Shown here in pieces: positions 3,002 to 53,178 of a stretch of DNA of 64,000 bases. Within the stretch, counting starts at the first letter, position 1. Each line of letters begins with the position of its first letter. The notes beneath the pieces are model-generated. The model did no database searches. It worked only from the letters and a program-made list of their open reading frames with translations, and had not been told where the DNA came from. The DNA comes from Actinobacteria bacterium HGW-Actinobacteria-2 (lineage in GTDB: Bacteria; Actinomycetota; Actinomycetes; Propionibacteriales; Propionibacteriaceae): the NCBI GenBank assembly GCA_002841335.1, contig PHEY01000001.1, forward strand, positions 124,964-188,963. The letters are read 5' to 3'. The translations under genes were made by a program, and so were the position numbers.

Positions 3002-3039
3002 GCCCTGCGCTGTGACGCTGCCGCTACGCCGCGCCGATC

Positions 3040-3444
3040 CTAGTCAGCGACGAAACGCAGGCTGACGGAGTTGATGCACCAGCGTTGGTCGGTCGGTGTG
3101 TCGTAGCCCTCGCCGGTGAACACGTGCCCCAAATGGGAGTCGCATTGGGCACAGCGCACCTCGGTGCGCGGCGCGCCGGGCAGGGAGCGGTCCTCCAGCA
3201 GCCGGACGTGATCGCCCGCGGCCGCGGTGAAGAACGACGGCCAGCCGCAGTGGGAGGCGAACTTGTGCTCACTGCGGAAAAGCTCGGCGCCGCAGGCGCG
3301 GCATTGGTAGGCCCCGGCGGTGGTGGTGTCGGTGTACTCGCCGGTGAAGGGGGCTTCGGTGCCGGCCTCGCGCAGGACGTGGTACTCCAACGGGCTCAGC
3401 TGCGCACGCCACTCTTGCGGCGTCTTGATGACTTTGAGTTCCAT
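3040..3444 (-). CDS. msrB: Peptide-methionine (R)-S-oxide reductase MsrB
   Basis: A 134-residue enzyme that reduces methionine-R-sulfoxide in oxidised proteins. Two zinc-binding CxxC pairs are visible (CRACG and CAQCDSHLGH), as are GWPSFF and the catalytic cysteine in RWCINSVSLRF near the C-terminus. The ATG at 3444 is chosen because GGAGG lies 5 nt upstream; the frame stays open far upstream but only as antisense of the neighbouring gene. It is a single-gene unit, divergent from the polymerase-domain gene at 3508. Confidence 0.95.
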   Translation of the reverse strand: MELKVIKTPQEWRAQLSPLEYHVLREAGTEAPFTGEYTDTTTAGAYQCRACGAELFRSEHKFASHCGWPSFFTAAAGDHVRLLEDRSLPGAPRTEVRCAQCDSHLGHVFTGEGYDTPTDQRWCINSVSLRFVAD

Positions 3445-3495
3445 GTGGGCCTCCAGCGGGCGTCGGGTCATCCAGCATAGGCAGAGGGTTGCGGC

Positions 3496-3501
3496 TAGCC
3501 T
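3496..3501 (+). promoter_or_regulatory. Leaderless-type -10 box of the LigD-polymerase gene
   Basis: TAGCCT, 6 nt, then ATG at 3508. There is no ribosome binding site between them. Confidence 0.6.
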
Positions 3502-3507
3502 GCGGTC

Positions 3508-4554
3508 ATGGCCGACAAAGCAGTCGAACTGCTGATCGAGGGACGTCCGGTGCGCCTCAGCAGCCCGGACAAGCCCTACTTCGCCGAGTTGGGGCTGAGC
3601 AAACGTGCCGTCGCCGACTACTTCTGCAGCGTGGGCGAGGGCATCGTCGCCGCGCTCCGCGACCGTCCGACCACGATGGAGCGCTGGCCAGGGGGAGTGC
3701 GGGCTGAGGCCAAGCTGGCCACCCGCAGCGACGGTGAGGGTGACGCCTTCTTCCAGAAGCGGGCCCCGTCCGGCACCCCGGAGTGGGTGCAGACCGCGGA
3801 GGTGCGGTTCCCGTCTGGACGGACGGCGCAGGAGGTGGCGCCGGCCGACCTGGCGACGATCATCTGGATGGTCAATCTCGGCACGGTGCGGTTCCACCCC
3901 TGGCCGGTACGCCTGCCCGATACCGAGGCGGTCGACCAGCTTCGGATCGACTTGAATCCCCAACCCGGGGTGGACTTCGACACCGCGGTGCGGGCGGCGC
4001 TGGTGCTGCGCGAGGTGCTCACCGAGGCGGGACTGACCGGCTTCTGCAAGACCAGCGGTGGCCGGGGAGTGCACGTGTACGCGCCGATCGAGCCTGCCGA
4101 CTTCATCGCGGCCCGGCACGCGGCGATCGCGGTCGGACGGGAGCTCGCTCGGCGTCTGCCCGACCAGGTGACGGTCAACTGGTGGAAGGAGGAGCGCGGC
4201 ACCCGGGTGTTCGTCGACTTCAACCAGATGGCCCGTGACCGGCTGATGACCTCGGCGTACTCGATCCGCCCCACCCCGGCAGGACTGGTGTCCGCACCCG
4301 TGGACTGGGATGAGCTGGCCTCGATCCAGCCGTCGCAGTTCTCGGTGGTGACCATGCCGGCCCGGTTCGCCGAGCGGGGTGATCTGTGGGCCGACCTGGA
4401 CGCCACCACGCCGGGTTCGCTGACGACCGCGCTGGACTGGTACGAGCGCGATGCGGCCGCCGGTGAGGGGGAGCTGCCCTATCCGCCGGAGTACCCCAAG
4501 ATGCCCGGTGAGCCGCCGCGAGTGCAGCCGTCGCGGGCTCGCAGGGTCGAGTGA
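3508..4554 (+). CDS. LigD-type polymerase/primase domain protein (stand-alone PolDom)
   Basis: A 348-residue archaeo-eukaryotic-primase-like polymerase, homologous to the polymerase domain of LigD and to stand-alone actinobacterial enzymes that fill gaps during DNA end joining and repair. Recognisable segments are LSSPDKPYFAE, MERWPGGV, FFQKRAP, LGTVRFHPWPVR, GRGVHVYAPI and RVFVDFNQMARDR. In the family the metal site is a DxD pair plus a later Asp. Here the first is D148 and the later is D237, but the second residue of the pair is N150 (gac ttg aat), so activity may be altered. It faces a LigC-type ligase gene convergently. No ligase or nuclease domain is fused, and no ku gene is in the window. 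Confidence 0.9.
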   Translation: MADKAVELLIEGRPVRLSSPDKPYFAELGLSKRAVADYFCSVGEGIVAALRDRPTTMERWPGGVRAEAKLATRSDGEGDAFFQKRAPSGTPEWVQTAEVRFPSGRTAQEVAPADLATIIWMVNLGTVRFHPWPVRLPDTEAVDQLRIDLNPQPGVDFDTAVRAALVLREVLTEAGLTGFCKTSGGRGVHVYAPIEPADFIAARHAAIAVGRELARRLPDQVTVNWWKEERGTRVFVDFNQMARDRLMTSAYSIRPTPAGLVSAPVDWDELASIQPSQFSVVTMPARFAERGDLWADLDATTPGSLTTALDWYERDAAAGEGELPYPPEYPKMPGEPPRVQPSRARRVE

Positions 4555-4588
4555 GGTCGCGGACGGGTTGCTGAGCCCCGCCGTCGGA

Positions 4589-4662
4589 GGCTTCGACACG
4601 CGGCTGCGCCGCTGCTCGACCAGCGCCGAGGTGACCAGAGCTCGTTGATCTGGTCGAACCCC
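4589..4662 (+). repeat. Intergenic REP-like palindromic repeat
   Basis: Between the convergent polymerase and ligase genes lies a palindromic sequence. A TTCGACACGCGGC arm pairs loosely with GCTGCTCGACC around an inner GCGGC-TGC-GCCGC hairpin. It is followed by an inverted partial copy, CTGGTCGAACC. The TTCGACA...CGACCAGC pattern resembles repeats scattered between genes in many high-GC actinobacteria (recalled, not searched). Only one copy was found in this window. It may act as a bidirectional transcription end. Confidence 0.5.
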
Positions 4663-4665
4663 ACG

Positions 4666-5724
4666 TCAGGGCGTGGGCGCCCAGACCTCGGCCAAGTCGT
4701 AGCCCGGGGCCTCTTGGAGTTGGTCGAAGCGGCACGAGGCGGCCTCGCGGTCAGGACGCCAGCGGCGGAACTGAGCCGAGTGACGCAAGCGGGTGCCCTG
4801 CAGGTGCTCGTAGCCGACGGTGCACACCAGCAGCGGCCAGATGAGTTCGGTCTGCTTCAGTTCGGTGGTCCAGCGACTCACCACTCCCGGGCGGCGGGCC
4901 CCGGTACTTGCCTGCGACCAGGGGTGTTCGACCTCCGGGGGCACCAGGTGGGCGGCCAGCATCTCGGCCAACTCGGCTCGTTTGGCTTGGGTGAAAGCCG
5001 AGGCCACTCCCACGAAGTGCAGCTCGCCGTCCTCGTACAGGCCCAGCTGCAAGGACCCGACCAGTGGACGGGCCGGCGTCGAGGTGCGGTGCCACCGGAA
5101 ACCGGCGACCACCACGTCGGCCTCGCGGGCGTGCTTGATCTTGATCATGGCGCGTTTGCCGGGCTGATAGGTGCCATCCAGGGACTTGGCGACGATGCCG
5201 TCCAGGCCTGCCCCCTCGAATTGGGCGAACCAGCGCTGGGCCAGGTCCAGGTCGGTGGTCAGCGGGGTCACCTTCACACCGTCGCCGGGGGAGGGGAGTA
5301 CCGCCAGCAGGCGCTGCCGGCGCTCGCTGAACGGACGTTCCAAGAGCACCTCGTCCTCGCTGCACAGCAGGTCCCAGCACACCAGCACCGCCGGAGTGGT
5401 GTCGGCGAGCATGGCCACCCGGCTCTCGGCGGGGTGGATGCGCTGGCTGAGCAGATCGAAGTCGAGCCGATCACCGGCCACGATCACCAACTCGCCGTCG
5501 ATCACGCAGCGCTGGGGAAGCTCCCGGCGCACTGTGGCGGCGACCTCGGGGAAGTAACGGGTCAGGTCGAGTCCGTTGCGGCTGGAAAGCACGACCTCGT
5601 CACCATCGCGGAACACCAGGCAGCGAAACCCGTCCCACTTGGGCTCATAGGCCATCCCCGGCGGAATGGTGGCCGCGGAACGCGCCAGCATGGGCTCCAG
5701 CGGCGCAGAAAGTGGCAGCGACAT
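4666..5724 (-). CDS. ATP-dependent DNA ligase, LigC type
   Basis: A 352-residue nucleotidyltransferase-fold ligase. The adenylated lysine is K29 in motif I (EPKWDGFR), followed by LSSRNG (motif Ia/III region), VIDGELV, GIVAKSLDGTY (motif IV) and KIKHARE (motif V), then a C-terminal OB-fold region. It seals nicks using ATP. Length and lack of extra domains fit LigC rather than LigD. It is convergent with the polymerase-domain gene and divergent from ppk2, 48 bp away. LigC plus PolDom encoded side by side is a split version of LigD functions. Confidence 0.92.
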   Translation of the reverse strand: MSLPLSAPLEPMLARSAATIPPGMAYEPKWDGFRCLVFRDGDEVVLSSRNGLDLTRYFPEVAATVRRELPQRCVIDGELVIVAGDRLDFDLLSQRIHPAESRVAMLADTTPAVLVCWDLLCSEDEVLLERPFSERRQRLLAVLPSPGDGVKVTPLTTDLDLAQRWFAQFEGAGLDGIVAKSLDGTYQPGKRAMIKIKHAREADVVVAGFRWHRTSTPARPLVGSLQLGLYEDGELHFVGVASAFTQAKRAELAEMLAAHLVPPEVEHPWSQASTGARRPGVVSRWTTELKQTELIWPLLVCTVGYEHLQGTRLRHSAQFRRWRPDREAASCRFDQLQEAPGYDLAEVWAPTP

Positions 5725-5772
5725 CGCTCAATAGTGACCCAATCCGGCGCGCCGGGGGTCCAAACTGAGCAC

Positions 5773-40587: not shown

Positions 40588-41769
40588 ATGCCGAAGGCCA
40601 CTCCCGCCAGCGCGACCGACACAGCTGCCGTCGCTGAACCGCCCGTCCGCAAGCGAGCTGCTCGCTCCCCCGCGGTACCGCCGCGTCCGGCACCTCTGCG
40701 GGTGATCACCGATCTTGCCCATCCGTTCCGCTGGGGTTTCACTGCGGCTGCCGGGGTCCTGGTCGCCATCGGCCTGGCCGGCGCGTTGGCGTCGTTGTCG
40801 ACGGTATTGGTCTGGTTCGGTATCGCGCTGTTCGTCGCCCTGGCGCTTGATCCGATCGTCAGTTGGCTGGAGGCGCGCCGATTGCGCCGCGGTCTGGCTA
40901 TCGCGTTGGTGTTCGCCGGTGTTGCGGTGGTCTTCGCCGGCCTGATCGCCTTGGTGGTGCCGGTCGCGGTCGTCCAGATCACCCAGTTCGCCGCAGCGGT
41001 GCCTGGCTACGTCTCCGACATTCAGAACGCCGAGTGGTTCAAGGCGATCGGGGAAACAACTGGCCAAGGAACCTGGTACCAGACTCTGCTCACGCAGATA
41101 CAGACCTGGCTGTCCAACCCAGCCAACCTGCTTGCCTTGGGTGGTGGCGCGCTGAGCATCGGCACCGGGGTGCTCGATTTCGCCTCGGGCAGCTTCGTGG
41201 TGTTGGTGCTCACCTTGTACTTCCTGGCCACGCTGAAGACCATCAAAAGTGCGTTGGTGCGGCTGGCGCCGGCCTACTCTCGGCCGCAACTGGCTGACTT
41301 CGCCGATCGGATGGCGGGTTCGGTCGGCAACTACGTCTCCGGAATGGTGATCCTGGCGACGTGCAACGCGGTCTTCTCCTTCATCGTGTTGACCCTGCTG
41401 GGGGTCCCGTTCGCCGCCTTGCTCGCGGTGGCGGCGCTGGTGCTGACGATGATTCCGATGATCGGTTCACCGGTGTTCTGGATACTGGCCACCGTGGTGT
41501 CGCTGTTCACGTCCGGCTGGGCCGCGCTGATCTGGACGGTGGCTTACAACGTCTACATCCAGATCGAGGCGTACGTGATGACGCCCAAGGTGATGAACAA
41601 GGCCGTGTCGATTCCCGGCCTGCTGGTGGTCATCGGTGCCGTGGTCGGTGCCACGCTCTTCGGCCTGTTGGGCGCTCTGGTCGCCGTGCCGGTGACGGCC
41701 TCTGTCTTGATGATCGTCGAGGAAGTGCTGCTGCCGCGCCAGGATGCACAGACCGAAGCCCCCGAGTGA
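40588..41769 (+). CDS. AI-2E/PerM family transporter
   Basis: A 393-residue membrane protein. A charged N-terminal tail (~45 residues) is followed by two helices, a soluble region, and a helix cluster with VLTLYFLATLKTIKSALVRL and PMIGSPVFWILATVVSLF typical of the family. Members export autoinducer-2 or act as Na+/H+ antiporters; the substrate here is unknown. The stop codon lies in the loop edge of a strong hairpin terminator. Confidence 0.88.
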   Translation: MPKATPASATDTAAVAEPPVRKRAARSPAVPPRPAPLRVITDLAHPFRWGFTAAAGVLVAIGLAGALASLSTVLVWFGIALFVALALDPIVSWLEARRLRRGLAIALVFAGVAVVFAGLIALVVPVAVVQITQFAAAVPGYVSDIQNAEWFKAIGETTGQGTWYQTLLTQIQTWLSNPANLLALGGGALSIGTGVLDFASGSFVVLVLTLYFLATLKTIKSALVRLAPAYSRPQLADFADRMAGSVGNYVSGMVILATCNAVFSFIVLTLLGVPFAALLAVAALVLTMIPMIGSPVFWILATVVSLFTSGWAALIWTVAYNVYIQIEAYVMTPKVMNKAVSIPGLLVVIGAVVGATLFGLLGALVAVPVTASVLMIVEEVLLPRQDAQTEAPE

Positions 41770-49310: not shown

Positions 49311-49521
49311 CGTGGTATCTCCCCTAGTCAGGTGGCGCCCGGAGGTAGTGGCCACGGCTGCGCAGCGCTGCGTGGCCGACCGATTTCGAGCGTGGGTGAA
49401 GTACATCACACCGGCCCGCGGTGGCGCCCACAAGCCGCAGGAAAGTCGCCGCCAAGCAGAACTGGTGGGGAGATGCAATAGCGAACGGGTAATCCATTCT
49501 GCCCAGGGCTCTGTGGCGGTT

Positions 49522-49606
49522 GTCCCCATAACGGGGACGTTGCGAGGTCCACAAAATGGGCTAACGTCCTCCGTACGGACGGCGGATACCCCTCAACCCC
49601 CCGCCG
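49522..49606 (+). promoter_or_regulatory. Promoter, upstream dyad and leader hairpin of small gene 1
   Basis: GTCCCC-N5-GGGGAC (49522-49538), then 23 nt, then TAACGT (49562-49567, -10). The leader carries CGGCGG (49580-49585) pairing with CCGCCG (49601-49606) around a 15-nt loop with ACCCCTC. The same ordered elements precede small gene 2 at 51910-51995. Low similarity between the two outside these blocks suggests each block is selected. Confidence 0.6.
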
Positions 49607-49616
49607 AAACACGAAA

Positions 49617-49769
49617 ATGAATGCACCCCTCCCACCACGCGCAATGCTGGTTTCAGTCACTGCTCCTGAAAGCAGTGGTCGTTCTCGTTCCGATCTGGAA
49701 GCGGACTTCGGTGACCGTCGGTTCGCCGCCCGCGCCCAGCGTCATCAACCCCGCTACCTGGCCAGCTGA
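49617..49769 (+). CDS. Small protein 1, paralogue of the protein at 52006
   Basis: A 50-residue frame, MNAPLPPRAMLVS at the start and RFAARAQRHQPRYLAS at the end. The protein at 52006 begins MNTPLPRRAILVN and ends QFAYAATHQQPRRIMQ. In the first 12 codons most differences are third-position silent changes, which points to selection on the protein. No Shine-Dalgarno is seen, only an A-rich CACGAAAATG. It has no signal peptide or membrane helix. Function is unknown; possibilities are a regulatory small protein, a leader peptide or a RiPP precursor. It is followed by a 14-bp stem hairpin at 49786. Confidence 0.6.
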   Translation: MNAPLPPRAMLVSVTAPESSGRSRSDLEADFGDRRFAARAQRHQPRYLAS

Positions 49770-49785
49770 CCGGTCGCTGCTCTTG

Positions 49786-49828
49786 CCTTGACGTGGGCGT
49801 CGTGCCCAGTGCTTCGCCCACGTCAAGG
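49786..49828 (+). terminator. Perfect 14-bp inverted repeat after small gene 1
   Basis: CCTTGACGTGGGCG-N15-CGCCCACGTCAAGG, 16 nt after the stop codon. A terminator is likely from position, but there is no T-run. Confidence 0.5.
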
Positions 49829-49857
49829 TCGGGGGTCGCTCAGGAATAGCATCGTCG

Positions 49858-49875
49858 CGAATGCTTGCGCATTCG
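49858..49875 (+). repeat. Short inverted repeat
   Basis: CGAATGC-TTGC-GCATTCG, a 7-bp perfect stem with a 4-nt loop, second in the hairpin cluster between small gene 1 and the amidohydrolase gene. Confidence 0.5.
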
Positions 49876-49922
49876 AACAATGCGGGCCGCCCGCGCTCAC
49901 CGCGCCTCCCCCTGTGAAAGCT

Positions 49923-49966
49923 CGATAACCGTCGGCGATCATTCGCCCTCGGGTCAACGGTTATCG
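49923..49966 (+). repeat. Perfect 10-bp inverted repeat
   Basis: CGATAACCGT-N24-ACGGTTATCG, third in the cluster. AT content is higher than in the surroundings. Confidence 0.55.
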
Positions 49967-49968
49967 CG

Positions 49969-50024
49969 TGGGTGCGGCTGGTGATGGTCACAAACCTCAC
50001 CCCGCTCGTTACCAGCCGCACCCA
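49969..50024 (+). repeat. Perfect 14-bp inverted repeat with 28-nt loop
   Basis: TGGGTGCGGCTGGT-N28-ACCAGCCGCACCCA, starting 3 nt after the previous repeat. Two perfect long-loop repeats side by side suggest a folded RNA or a protein-recognition site rather than chance. Confidence 0.6.
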
Positions 50025-50087
50025 ACCCTTTGTCTGGAACATGCCGTTCCCGCATTGTTTGCACGCCTATGGCGGTCGGTTCGTCCG

Positions 50088-50130
50088 GCCTGCGCCCGCT
50101 TCCCCCCTCCCCCCCCGTGCGGGCGCAGGC
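50088..50130 (+). ncRNA. Hairpin with C-tract loop, candidate structured RNA
   Basis: GCCTGCGCCCGC and GCGGGCGCAGGC form a perfect 12-bp stem around a 19-nt loop consisting almost only of C and T, with runs of six and eight C. The other strand has matching G runs. It is reminiscent of C-rich-loop hairpins in the actinobacterial 6C RNA family, but only one such hairpin is present. It lies 69 nt before the amidohydrolase start. Confidence 0.45.
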
Positions 50131-50198
50131 TGAGACCCTGCTGTAACCAAGGCGTCCTAGCATCACCGGCGGAACCAGCGGGTGAAGGGGCTTTGGCG

Positions 50199-51845
50199 AT
50201 GTATGCAGATCTGGTGTTCACAGGCGGTCCGGTGTTCACCGCAGACACGGTGCGCTCGCGCACGGACGCGGTGGCGGTCCTCAATGGCCGAATCGTCGCG
50301 GTGGGATCGCCGCAGGTCGCCGAGCTGATCGGGCCGTCGACCGAGGTCGTCGACCTGGCCGGACGGCTGCTGATCCCCGGCTTCCAGGACGCGCACATCC
50401 ACCCGGTCGGCGGCGGCATGGAACTGCTGCGCTGCAACCTGGCCGACTCCCACGACGTGAGCGAGTACGAGGCCGTGATCGCCGGCTATGCGGCCGAACA
50501 TCCTGATGAGGAGTGGATTCTCGGTGGCGGCTGGGCGATGGCCGCCTTCCCCGGGGGGACGCCCACTGCGGCGGCGCTGGATCGGCTGGTGCCGGAACGT
50601 CCGGTCTTCCTGCCCAACCGCGACCACCACAGCGCCTGGGTGAACTCCGTCGCCCTCGCTGCGGCGGGCATCACGCGCGACACCCCCGATCCCGAAGACG
50701 GGCGCATCGAGCGGGACGCCGACGGCAATCCGTCCGGGGTGCTGCATGAGGGCGCGATGTCGCTGGTGGAGGGGCTGATTCCTGAGCCGACCACCGAAGA
50801 GATCGTCGAAGGGCTGCTGGCCGGCCAGGCCTACCTGCACTCGCTGGGAATCACCGGCTGGCAGGACGCGATCATCGGTGTGTACAGCGGCATTCCCGAC
50901 GCCGGAGAGGCCTATCTGCAGGTGGCCGGCGACGGCCGACTGACCGCCCGTGTGGTGGGCGCGCTGTGGTGGGACCGGACAGCCGGCGCCGAGCAGATTC
51001 CGGGCCTGGTGGCCCGCCGCGAGCGCCTGCAGGCCGGACGCTTCCGCGCCACGTCGATCAAGATCATGCAGGACGGCGTCCCGGAGAACTTCACCGCGGC
51101 GATGACCTACCCCTACGAAGACGGGTGCGGTCACGCCACCGACCGTTCCGGAATCTCATTCGTACCGGTGGAGGTGCTGAACCAGATCGTGCCCGAGCTG
51201 GACGCCCTGGGCTTCCAGTTGCACTTCCACGGCATTGGCGACCGGGCCGTCCGCGAGTGCTTGGACGCGATCGAGCTGGCCATCACCCGCAACGGACGCA
51301 ATGACCAGCGTCACCACATCGCTCACCTGCAGGTGGTGCACCCCGATGACGTGGCGCGACTGTCCCAGCTGGGTGTGGTGGCCAACCTGCAGCCGCTGTG
51401 GGCCACCCTCGACGAACAGATGGCGGAGTTGAATCTGCCGTTCCTGGGTGAGCCGCGCAGTAGTTGGCAGTACCCCTTCGGCGACCTGCTGCGCCACGGC
51501 ACCGTTCTGGCCGGTGGCAGCGATTGGCCGGTGACCACGCCGAATCCGTTCCACGCCATGCACACCGCGGTGACCCGGCAGAGCGCGCCTGGCTACAGCG
51601 ATCAGGAGGCTGAGGCGTTCCTAGAGCACCAGAAGCTCGACCTGGCCACGATCATGGTCGCCTACACCGCAGGCTCGGCCTTCGTGAACCACTGCGAGGA
51701 CGAGGTCGGGACGATCGAGGTGGGCAAGCTGGCCGATCTGGTGGTGCTCGATTCCGACCCGTTCGCCACCGGCGACATTGCGAACACGAAGGTGTTGCAG
51801 ACCTTCGTCGAGGGCGTCCGGGTCTACGCGGCAGACCAGGCCTGA
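50199..51845 (+). CDS. YtcJ-type amidohydrolase
   Basis: A 548-residue metal-dependent amidohydrolase. LIPGFQDAHIHP supplies the first HxH, a lysine in SIKIMQDG, FHGIGDRAV and HHIAHLQVVHPDD later His residues, and GGSDWPV the catalytic Asp. GTIEVGKLADLVVLDSDPF is the family C-terminal signature. The substrate (amide, cyclic amide or ester) is unknown. No secretion signal is seen. ATG at 50199 follows GAAGGGG. It lies between the two paralogous small genes. Confidence 0.88.
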   Translation: MYADLVFTGGPVFTADTVRSRTDAVAVLNGRIVAVGSPQVAELIGPSTEVVDLAGRLLIPGFQDAHIHPVGGGMELLRCNLADSHDVSEYEAVIAGYAAEHPDEEWILGGGWAMAAFPGGTPTAAALDRLVPERPVFLPNRDHHSAWVNSVALAAAGITRDTPDPEDGRIERDADGNPSGVLHEGAMSLVEGLIPEPTTEEIVEGLLAGQAYLHSLGITGWQDAIIGVYSGIPDAGEAYLQVAGDGRLTARVVGALWWDRTAGAEQIPGLVARRERLQAGRFRATSIKIMQDGVPENFTAAMTYPYEDGCGHATDRSGISFVPVEVLNQIVPELDALGFQLHFHGIGDRAVRECLDAIELAITRNGRNDQRHHIAHLQVVHPDDVARLSQLGVVANLQPLWATLDEQMAELNLPFLGEPRSSWQYPFGDLLRHGTVLAGGSDWPVTTPNPFHAMHTAVTRQSAPGYSDQEAEAFLEHQKLDLATIMVAYTAGSAFVNHCEDEVGTIEVGKLADLVVLDSDPFATGDIANTKVLQTFVEGVRVYAADQA

Positions 51846-51909
51846 GCGGCGATTTTGGGGCTGTCGGCGGCTCCGGAGGTGTCGATATTGCCTACAGAGT
51901 TCGCTCAGA

Positions 51910-51995
51910 TGTCCCCTTTCGGGGGACACCTGGGTGACAGTTTTCGGCTAAGGTCGCCCGCAACGGACGGCAGGTTACCCCTCGACCCCCTGCCG
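51910..51995 (+). promoter_or_regulatory. Promoter, upstream dyad and leader hairpin of small gene 2
   Basis: TGTCCCC-N5-GGGGACA (51910-51928), then TAAGGT (51949-51954, -10). The leader carries CGGCAGG (51968-51974) pairing with CCTGCCG (51989-51995) around a loop with ACCCCTC. Compared with small gene 1, one stem pair changes from G-C to A-T on both sides, a compensatory change. Confidence 0.62.
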
Positions 51996-52005
51996 AAAAA
52001 CGAAG

Positions 52006-52155
52006 ATGAACACACCTCTCCCGCGACGGGCCATCCTCGTCAACGACACACCAACCGCCAACACGGCCGCGAGCCGTCCCGCCAACCAGAACATGGGGAC
52101 TCCCCAGTTCGCCTACGCCGCGACGCATCAGCAACCGCGGCGGATCATGCAGTGA
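52006..52155 (+). CDS. Small protein 2, paralogue of the protein at 49617
   Basis: A 49-residue frame starting MNTPLPRRAILVN and ending QFAYAATHQQPRRIMQ. Conserved with small protein 1 are the N-terminal block and a C-terminal FAxxAxxxQPR pattern at the same distance from the end. The middle is Thr/Ala/Asn-rich here and Ser/Arg/Asp-rich there. No ribosome binding site is seen, just CGAAGATG. It is followed 10 nt later by a strong intrinsic terminator, so it forms its own transcription unit. Function is unknown. Confidence 0.65.
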   Translation: MNTPLPRRAILVNDTPTANTAASRPANQNMGTPQFAYAATHQQPRRIMQ

Positions 52156-52164
52156 GGCTTTCAG

Positions 52165-52213
52165 ACCAGTGATCGGGACGGCGAGCGAAAGCTCCCCGTC
52201 CCGATCTGGTTTT
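52165..52213 (+). terminator. Strong Rho-independent terminator of small gene 2
   Basis: ACCA, then GATCGGGACGG and GAGC, pair with GCTC, CCGTCCCGATC and TGGT around a GAAA tetraloop, with one mismatch and a 2-nt bulge. TTTT follows. Confidence 0.85.
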
Positions 52214-52236
52214 GAACGCGTGTCGACCGTCGGCCA

Positions 52237-53178
52237 CTAGCTCGCGGCGCTGATCGCGAGGCGGCTCAGATCCTCGGCGGTGTAACCAGGCCAGCCGTGC
52301 AGGCGGCGCTGCCAATCCGGCGGCACCTGCTTGGCTCCCCAGACCGCTCCGGCCAGGCTGCCGGCGATAGCGGCCACGGTATCGGTGTCTCCCCCGCCCC
52401 GCACCGCCCTGATCAATGCGTCACTGACGTCGCTGGCGCCGGCGACCGCAGCGAAGGCGCCTTGGAAAGCCCGGACGACCCACCCGTTCGACTCGCGGAA
52501 GTCACGAGGGTGGGCACCGGGGACGGCGGCTTCGTCGATGAAGCCGGCCCAGCGCTGGCGCCGATCGGCCGCCAGCCAGGGCAAGCCCGTGGTGATGTCG
52601 AGTTCTCCGGTGCGGATGCCGTGGCGGATGGCCAGTGACCACAGCACCACCGCGTCGACGTTGTCCTGCTCGTAGTGGGTGAGTTGGGCGATGCGGGCAG
52701 CGGCCTCGACCAGTTCGTCCTCGGCGCCGTCGGTCAGGAAGCCGAGCGCGACCGGGCCGGTGCGCATCAGCGACCCGTTGCCCGCGCTGCGCCCAGACTG
52801 CAGATGGACGGCGCGAGCTGCTCTGCGTGCGGTGTCCTCGCGGACGTCGCCGCGAAGCTGAACCAACACCGAGCGCGTCTGGGCGCCCACGTCCTTGGCG
52901 GTGGCCGACCACTCCAGCCACCGATCGAGGATTCCGGCCAGCACGTCTGCGTCACGCAGCGAGTCGCCGCGAGCCAGCGCTTCCAGAATCGGCATCGCCA
53001 TGGACGTGTCATCGGTCCACTCTCCCGGCTCGTGCCCGAAGATGCCGACTCCGAACTCGGGGCGCTGCTGATCTGACAGTCCGTCGCCGAACTCGTACGC
53101 CGAGCCCAGGGCGTCCCCTGCCGCCGAGGCGATGATCGCCCCCACGGCCCGGTCAAGCTGCATCGGATCATCGCTCAT
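52237..53178 (-). CDS. ADP-ribosylglycohydrolase family protein
   Basis: A 313-residue DraG/ARH-type hydrolase. The two-metal site motifs are present: GEWTDDTSMAMPIL near the N-terminus and GGGDTDTVAAIAGSLAGAVWG near the C-terminus. It removes ADP-ribose from proteins or other targets. No partner ADP-ribosyltransferase is seen nearby. ATG at 53178 is 6 nt after a TAGTCT box. It is divergent from the MFS gene, whose start also looks leaderless. Confidence 0.92.
   Translation of the reverse strand: MSDDPMQLDRAVGAIIASAAGDALGSAYEFGDGLSDQQRPEFGVGIFGHEPGEWTDDTSMAMPILEALARGDSLRDADVLAGILDRWLEWSATAKDVGAQTRSVLVQLRGDVREDTARRAARAVHLQSGRSAGNGSLMRTGPVALGFLTDGAEDELVEAAARIAQLTHYEQDNVDAVVLWSLAIRHGIRTGELDITTGLPWLAADRRQRWAGFIDEAAVPGAHPRDFRESNGWVVRAFQGAFAAVAGASDVSDALIRAVRGGGDTDTVAAIAGSLAGAVWGAKQVPPDWQRRLHGWPGYTAEDLSRLAISAAS

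Follow-up and report, generated by a model that had tools for sequence, protein, structure and literature searches.

The locus described here raises the question of whether two short reading frames that flank an amidohydrolase gene encode related proteins and, if so, in which cellular programme these proteins take part. The frames lie in a stretch of 64,000 nucleotides from Actinobacteria bacterium HGW-Actinobacteria-2 (the window; contig PHEY01000001.1, positions 124,964 to 188,963), which is part of a contig 683,815 bases long in a genome of 2.92 Mb. The original prediction described them as paralogous, selected, protein-coding small genes without a known family, and this description was supported by ten open frames, an excess of silent changes, and the lack of any library match. 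Both frames exist exactly as claimed on the forward strand: small gene 1 at 49617–49769 (50 aa; frame, profile search, and silent/replacement counts) and small gene 2 at 52006–52155 (49 aa; frame, homologue and profile searches). The N-terminal block said to be common to both, MN[AT]PLP[PR]RA[MI]LV, is present, and the F-A-x-x-A-x-x-x-Q-P-R block starts 15 residues before the end of each peptide. Ten of the first 12 codons differ (7 silent and 3 replacement, counted by eye), in line with the claim of mostly silent differences. Similarity between the two loci extends further upstream than first described: it begins at a palindrome 95 bases 5′ of the start codons, covers a −10 box and a leader hairpin, and continues into the frame.

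To define the family, we searched the gene 2 peptide against 60 related genomes and then a profile against 30 genomes of the genus. The peptide search matched 45 of the 60 genomes at E ≤ 1, mostly weakly, and non-member matches (L005, L010, L011, and L018) were rejected for lacking the conserved blocks. The profile search found ten copies of 49–61 aa in 7 of the 30 genomes: the window genome, G004, and G023 have two copies apiece, and G003, G007, G008, and G019 have one. Eight copies in six other genomes thus supply the third homologue on which the prediction depended, and none of the ten has an internal stop that would mark a broken frame. An RNA model of the leader and frame start (R1), run over 198 genomes of the taxonomic family, recovered the same ten copies (E ≤ 6.8e-18, 7 genomes), and only these were taken as members; some match at E ≤ 1 was found in 69 of the 198 genomes. 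Inspection by eye of eight weaker matches (L059–L065 and L069) revealed no family member: six were protein starts with Arg-Arg and a hydrophobic stretch, resembling signal peptides, L069 resembled a PspC-type start, and L063 was of neither type. Among 391 genomes of the order, seven matched at E ≤ 0.001, namely six genus genomes and G282, outside the genus, with a weak and partial match (E 9.2e-4). The DNA pattern of the leader hairpin matched seven stretches in a genome contig collection, labelled Propionicimonas sp. (one), Propionibacteriaceae bacterium (five, from four assemblies), and Propionibacteriales bacterium (one), and a family frame came next in all seven.

No known family was found for these proteins in Pfam (both window proteins, E ≤ 1), NCBIfam (three family proteins, E ≤ 1), or PHROGs (three family proteins). 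Rfam gave no match in the small-gene region up to E 5 and only four tRNAs over the whole window. A mobile-element origin was rejected, as tblastn with the G008 peptide matched no phage or plasmid and the leader hairpin pattern matched no viral contig. The top-ranked results of our literature searches held no account of the small proteins or of the palindrome described below. The small proteins are a new protein family, encoded by a lineage-restricted gene.

Evidence for protein coding came from the distribution of substitutions. Gene 1 and its G004 orthologue, the closest informative pair, differ by 10 silent and 3 replacement changes, falling 3, 0, and 10 times at codon positions 1, 2, and 3 (binomial P = 0.0002); dN/dS on orthologues, proposed earlier as a check, was about 0.09. 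Read in either of the alternative forward frames of gene 1, the same changes would almost all be replacements. Gene 2 and its G004 counterpart gave a pN/pS of 0.36, and the G019 and G003 frames differ by 9 silent and 8 replacement changes (P = 0.02); in these counts, the second G023 frame was taken from one codon past its first ATG. Identity between gene 1 and G004 was 140/153 in the frame, 51/55 in the leader, and 92/140 in the 150 bases past the stop. Conservation of codons 2–12 at positions 1, 2, and 3 was 0.91, 0.90, and 0.46 across seven sequences (both G023 copies and G007 left out), and the N-terminal block is therefore held as protein rather than RNA; the corresponding values for the last 15 codons were 0.61, 0.71, and 0.43. 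Three observations weigh on the other side: one reverse-strand frame of gene 1, which shares the wobble positions, looks similar (8 silent and 4 replacement codons), the stretch upstream of the G019 and G003 frames is more alike (79/80) than the frames themselves (147/165), and this pair, taken alone, is weak coding evidence. Overall, the small genes are almost certainly a real protein-coding family.

Next, we focused on the promoters of the small genes, most of which carry the palindrome GTCCCC-N5-GGGGAC, referred to here as the operator. Operator 1 (GTCCCCATAACGGGGAC, 49522–49538) is centred 32 nt before the −10 box of gene 1 (TAACGT, of the TANNNT type and without a clear −35; 49562–49567, forward strand), and operator 2 (GTCCCCTTTCGGGGGAC, 51911–51927) is centred 30 nt before that of gene 2 (TAAGGT; 51949–51954, forward strand); both operators are without strand, and both boxes were placed from aligned copies. 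In all seven copies with an intact site, the operator centre lies 29–32 nt 5′ of the TANNNT box, which is the position of a class II activator. The claim that each gene has its own promoter held in that the TANNNT box stands in the same place in ten copies (by eye), but a scan of 49400–52300 gave no match to the sigma-70 consensus.

Across the 30 genus genomes, 58 exact operator sites were found against 3 for the reversed control; 18 genomes had at least one site, and 7 of the 58 sites precede small genes. Twelve sites (9 loci in 8 genomes) have a TadE or SipW-cognate (TIGR04088) gene within 2.2 kb, compared with 0.38 expected from even placement over the whole genome and not over intergenic DNA only, and 8 sites have one within 1 kb, compared with 0.20 expected. 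These counts used 58 operator, 103 of 128 TadE, and 31 of 44 SipW-cognate positions, matches in genomes without a site being left out. Among the matches listed, the relaxed form GTCMCC-N5-GGKGAC exceeded its control in most genomes, although many relaxed matches were GTCACC/GGTGAC pairs. We also inspected 20 and 12 stretches around operator loci, selected by choice and with only some of their genes scanned for families. They included RcpC-like/Tad junctions in the window genome, G022, and G019 (RcpC being below the cut-off in the latter two) and a G007 locus where genes for a SipW-like peptidase and two SipW-cognate proteins lie together; relaxed sites adjoin secreted subtilases and a CshA/SpaA-type adhesin. 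Rfam returned one tRNA and two weak or sub-threshold matches on ten operator loci. From their positions, these sites look like an undescribed surface regulon.

Several observations count against this regulon or the place of the small genes in it, starting with the whole-genome basis of the expected value. Of the 58 sites, 46 have neither a TadE nor a SipW-cognate gene within 2.2 kb. Some sites adjoin genes for glycosyltransferases, a helicase, part of a transporter, or a CAAX protease, or genes without a match, and one in the window genome (L129:3000-3016) lies by a DnaA-box-like sequence (by eye), about 1.4 kb past dnaA on its downstream side. Several inspected loci had no clear surface gene, and the sole SipW-cognate site checked, in L132, did not show the operator-to-−10 spacing of the small genes (by eye). 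Genomes G012, G018, and G022 carry the operator and surface genes, yet no small gene, and the operator is degenerate in 3 of the 10 small-gene copies (G003, G019, and the second of G023). Taking both sides together, we consider it likely that the small genes are operator-controlled members of a surface-linked regulon.

Other features of the operator loci were recorded. The operator stands beside Tad-pilus or SipW-cognate genes at G007:C24, G008:C1, G012:C33, G018:C68 and C74, G019:C21, G022:C1, G000:C14, and G027:C145, and sites are paired 34–46 bp apart at several loci. A variant with a gap of 4 (G019:C9:25738), outside the operator counts, lies near a SipW-cognate gene. In L132:1260-3891, an actinobacterial SipW-like signal peptidase gene is flanked by genes for two SipW-cognate (TasA-like) proteins, with an exact or relaxed operator before each of the two. 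An exact operator at 3022–3038 of L162 precedes by about 190 bases a gene (3226–5727) whose 833-aa product has a LuxR-type helix-turn-helix domain (PF00196) at its C-terminus and is a candidate for the operator's own regulator. About 100 bases beside the operator are alike in G007 and G022 (L134:3015 and L140:3061; shared CGAGGAAAGCGAT.CCTTCCCCGCGCCGCC); this shared stretch had no Rfam match and is perhaps an RNA gene. Known actinobacterial operators, that of MtrA and others, were also weighed.

Downstream of the −10 box, the leaders contain a 6-bp stem closing a loop with a nearly fixed CCCCTC-N-ACCCC. Leader hairpin 1 (49580–49606, forward strand), which starts 12 nt past its −10 box, has the stem CGGCGG/CCGCCG and a loop with CCCCTCAACCCC; leader hairpin 2 (51968–51995, forward strand) has the stem CGGCAG/CTGCCG and a loop with CCCCTCGACCCC. 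The stem paired in 54 of 54 cells from nine distinct sequences, with compensated changes in two pairs, in an alignment fitted to the stem model; shuffled controls reached the number of compensated pairs in 27 of 500 cases and that of compensated cells in 3 of 500, and in slid versions of the stem 7 to 71% of cells paired. In the six copies measured, the stem begins 12–13 nt after the −10 box, and the transcript therefore probably starts with the stem. Transcripts folded better than shuffles (z of −2.6 and −3.9 for genes 1 and 2, respectively), and no clear Shine-Dalgarno sequence was seen by eye ahead of the start codons. The covariance model of 6C RNA matched nothing in the region up to E 5. 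In the window genome, RF01066 gave no match at E ≤ 0.001, a weak negative because scoring covered only 150 of 759 candidates and the control was detected in 1 of 14 genomes. The leader hairpin may be a cis-acting element for stability or translation.

The proteins have conserved ends, MNTPLPRRALLEP and QFA..A..HQPRRLLQ, separated by a middle variable in length and sequence. Seven proteins analysed are hydrophilic and Cys-free, with no hydrophobic stretch and a net charge of +1 to +4. They do not show a Tat signal of twin Arg plus a hydrophobic stretch (top 15-residue mean hydropathy 0.17–0.73), and NCBIfam at E ≤ 1 found no SipW-cognate signal (TIGR04088) in three of the small proteins. An AlphaFold model of gene 2 from eight sequences had a mean pLDDT of 62 and a pTM of 0.16, with the ends modelled best (76 for the first block and 68 for the last). 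The small protein is probably disordered according to this prediction; disorder is a reading of the low confidence scores, since DSSP assigned nothing in the model. Related PRR(A)LL motifs occur at both ends (LPRRALL and QPRRLL) and may represent two putative binding sites, although this resemblance extends over a short stretch only and, in gene 1, is weaker.

The amidohydrolase gene (PF07969; 50199–51845, forward strand) does sit between both small genes in the window, as first reported, but it is no fixed partner: a relative at E ≤ 1e-100 occurs in 4 of the 30 genus genomes, and none was found in three of the seven small-gene genomes (G003, G019, and G023; G003 and G023 are 74% and 83% complete). 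The stretches around the small genes of G003 and G023 likewise contained no amidohydrolase relative, and the association is incidental. Some chromosomal neighbours recur beside copies, and no gene is common to all stretches compared. A gene for an AI-2E-family transporter (PF01594) lies at 40588–41769, and its relatives are found 1.5 to about 8 kb from a small gene in the window genome, G003, G007, and G019. Regarding the 3′ ends, the inverted repeats predicted downstream of each gene are present: a fully complementary hairpin with 14-nt arms, a loop of 15, and no T run follows gene 1 (49786–49828, forward strand), and a terminator-like hairpin with 16-nt arms (94% complementary) and a tggtttt tail to 52213 follows gene 2 (52171–52206, forward strand). 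The terminator scan of 49400–52300 listed neither, but it predicted three other sites (shuffles average 1.6), one of them within gene 1. The small genes look monocistronic; in the window, both are followed by hairpins.

Four other explanations were weighed against a protein-coding, operator-controlled gene. The frames might be chance products riding with a conserved promoter, as their very small size and a leader and promoter conserved about as well as the frame would allow; the excess of silent changes and the ten open frames make this hardly credible. Alternatively, the transcript might be a dual-function or mainly non-coding RNA in which the C-rich loop and C-rich frame start pair with the G-rich ribosome-binding sites of other mRNAs, the frame being secondary. 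Small RNAs of the 6C/B11 type pair C-rich stretches with G-rich ribosome-binding sites in this way, and the nearly fixed loop, a CACCCCTC-like stretch repeated at the frame start, and the folding of both transcripts are consistent with such a role. This RNA reading is nonetheless unlikely, given that the 6C searches found no match (weakly so for the genome), that third positions show no higher conservation in codons 2–12 than in the C-terminal block, and that the hairpin pattern is found only beside the small-gene frame.

The same C-rich sequence could instead be the target of the protein itself, which would repress its own synthesis by binding CCCCTC in the leader loop and near the start codon. 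The protein is basic, the leader is found only with the small gene, and ACACCCCTC occurs both in the loop and at codons 3–5 in G003, G007, G008, and G019; yet the frame copy drifts at third positions (ACTCCCCTT in G004 and AATTCCCTG in G023) and no known family is matched, and we regard autoregulation by an RNA-binding peptide as rather improbable. Finally, small size, conserved ends around a variable core, the link to surface genes, and the transporter relative near the small gene in four genomes could suggest the precursor of a secreted signal or bacteriocin-like peptide. Such a precursor is very unlikely, however, as the seven proteins have neither a hydrophobic stretch nor Cys, no gene recurs in all stretches compared, and the ten window neighbours scanned included no modification gene.

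We compared the small proteins and their leader with known systems. SinI and SlrA of Bacillus subtilis are antirepressors, small cytoplasmic proteins of a programme that includes SipW/TasA-type matrix genes; SinI is described as having 57 aa. The tie of a small cytoplasmic protein to such a matrix programme is the point of likeness, whereas the window proteins lack a SinI-type Pfam match (E ≤ 1) and belong to a different phylum. The helical hook that would bind an XRE-type repressor was not seen in the gene 2 model, though that model is poor. The 6C/B11 RNA (RF01066) likewise has a C-rich loop in an actinobacterial transcript, but 6C RNA has two such hairpins, whereas the transcript here has one, has no covariance-model match, and encodes a selected protein. 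CcsR/CcaF1 of Rhodobacter also combines a small Arg-containing protein with a C-rich loop RNA, but the window proteins have no Pfam match and the C-rich loop is in the 5′ leader. CrsL (MSMEG_5890/Rv3489) is described as a CarD-binding, disordered 5.7-kDa actinobacterial protein (PMC12709188), similar in size and disordered when alone, as predicted for the small protein. By the same description, CrsL is widespread and conserved in its middle (residues 20–45), whereas the small protein is conserved at its ends and confined to part of one genus.

The explanation that best joins these data is that the small genes encode lineage-restricted cytoplasmic proteins, co-switched with a surface programme through the operator, controlled by their leader, and acting as two-ended adaptors; we give this combined account about an even chance. 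A factor binding GTCCCC-N5-GGGGAC at about −42 would turn on the small genes together with a programme that may comprise Tad pili, SipW/TasA-like matrix proteins, secreted proteases, and adhesins. The mRNA would start with the C-rich-loop hairpin, which is proposed to protect the message or gate its translation because no clear Shine-Dalgarno sequence was seen. In the least certain step, the LPRRALL and QPRRLL ends of a disordered adaptor would bind a partner in the programme and tune its output. A role as a two-ended accessory or feedback peptide is conceivable from the sequence but doubtful. More speculatively, and with little likelihood, a disordered two-ended peptide, produced while the regulon is active and subject to gating by its leader RNA, whose loop copies the frame start, might cross-link or displace the LuxR-type activator and thereby set pilus and matrix output; if true, actinobacteria would control a surface programme in a new way.

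Where two short frames had been overlooked, there is now a small-protein family that can be put to the test, with its promoter, leader, and candidate regulon defined. The results also indicate that joint conservation of leader and frame can tell protein-level from RNA-level selection in a gene of 50 codons. For the biology of the lineage, an operator not met in our searches appears to tie Tad pili, SipW-type matrix, and secreted surface proteins together in one genus of Propionibacteriaceae.

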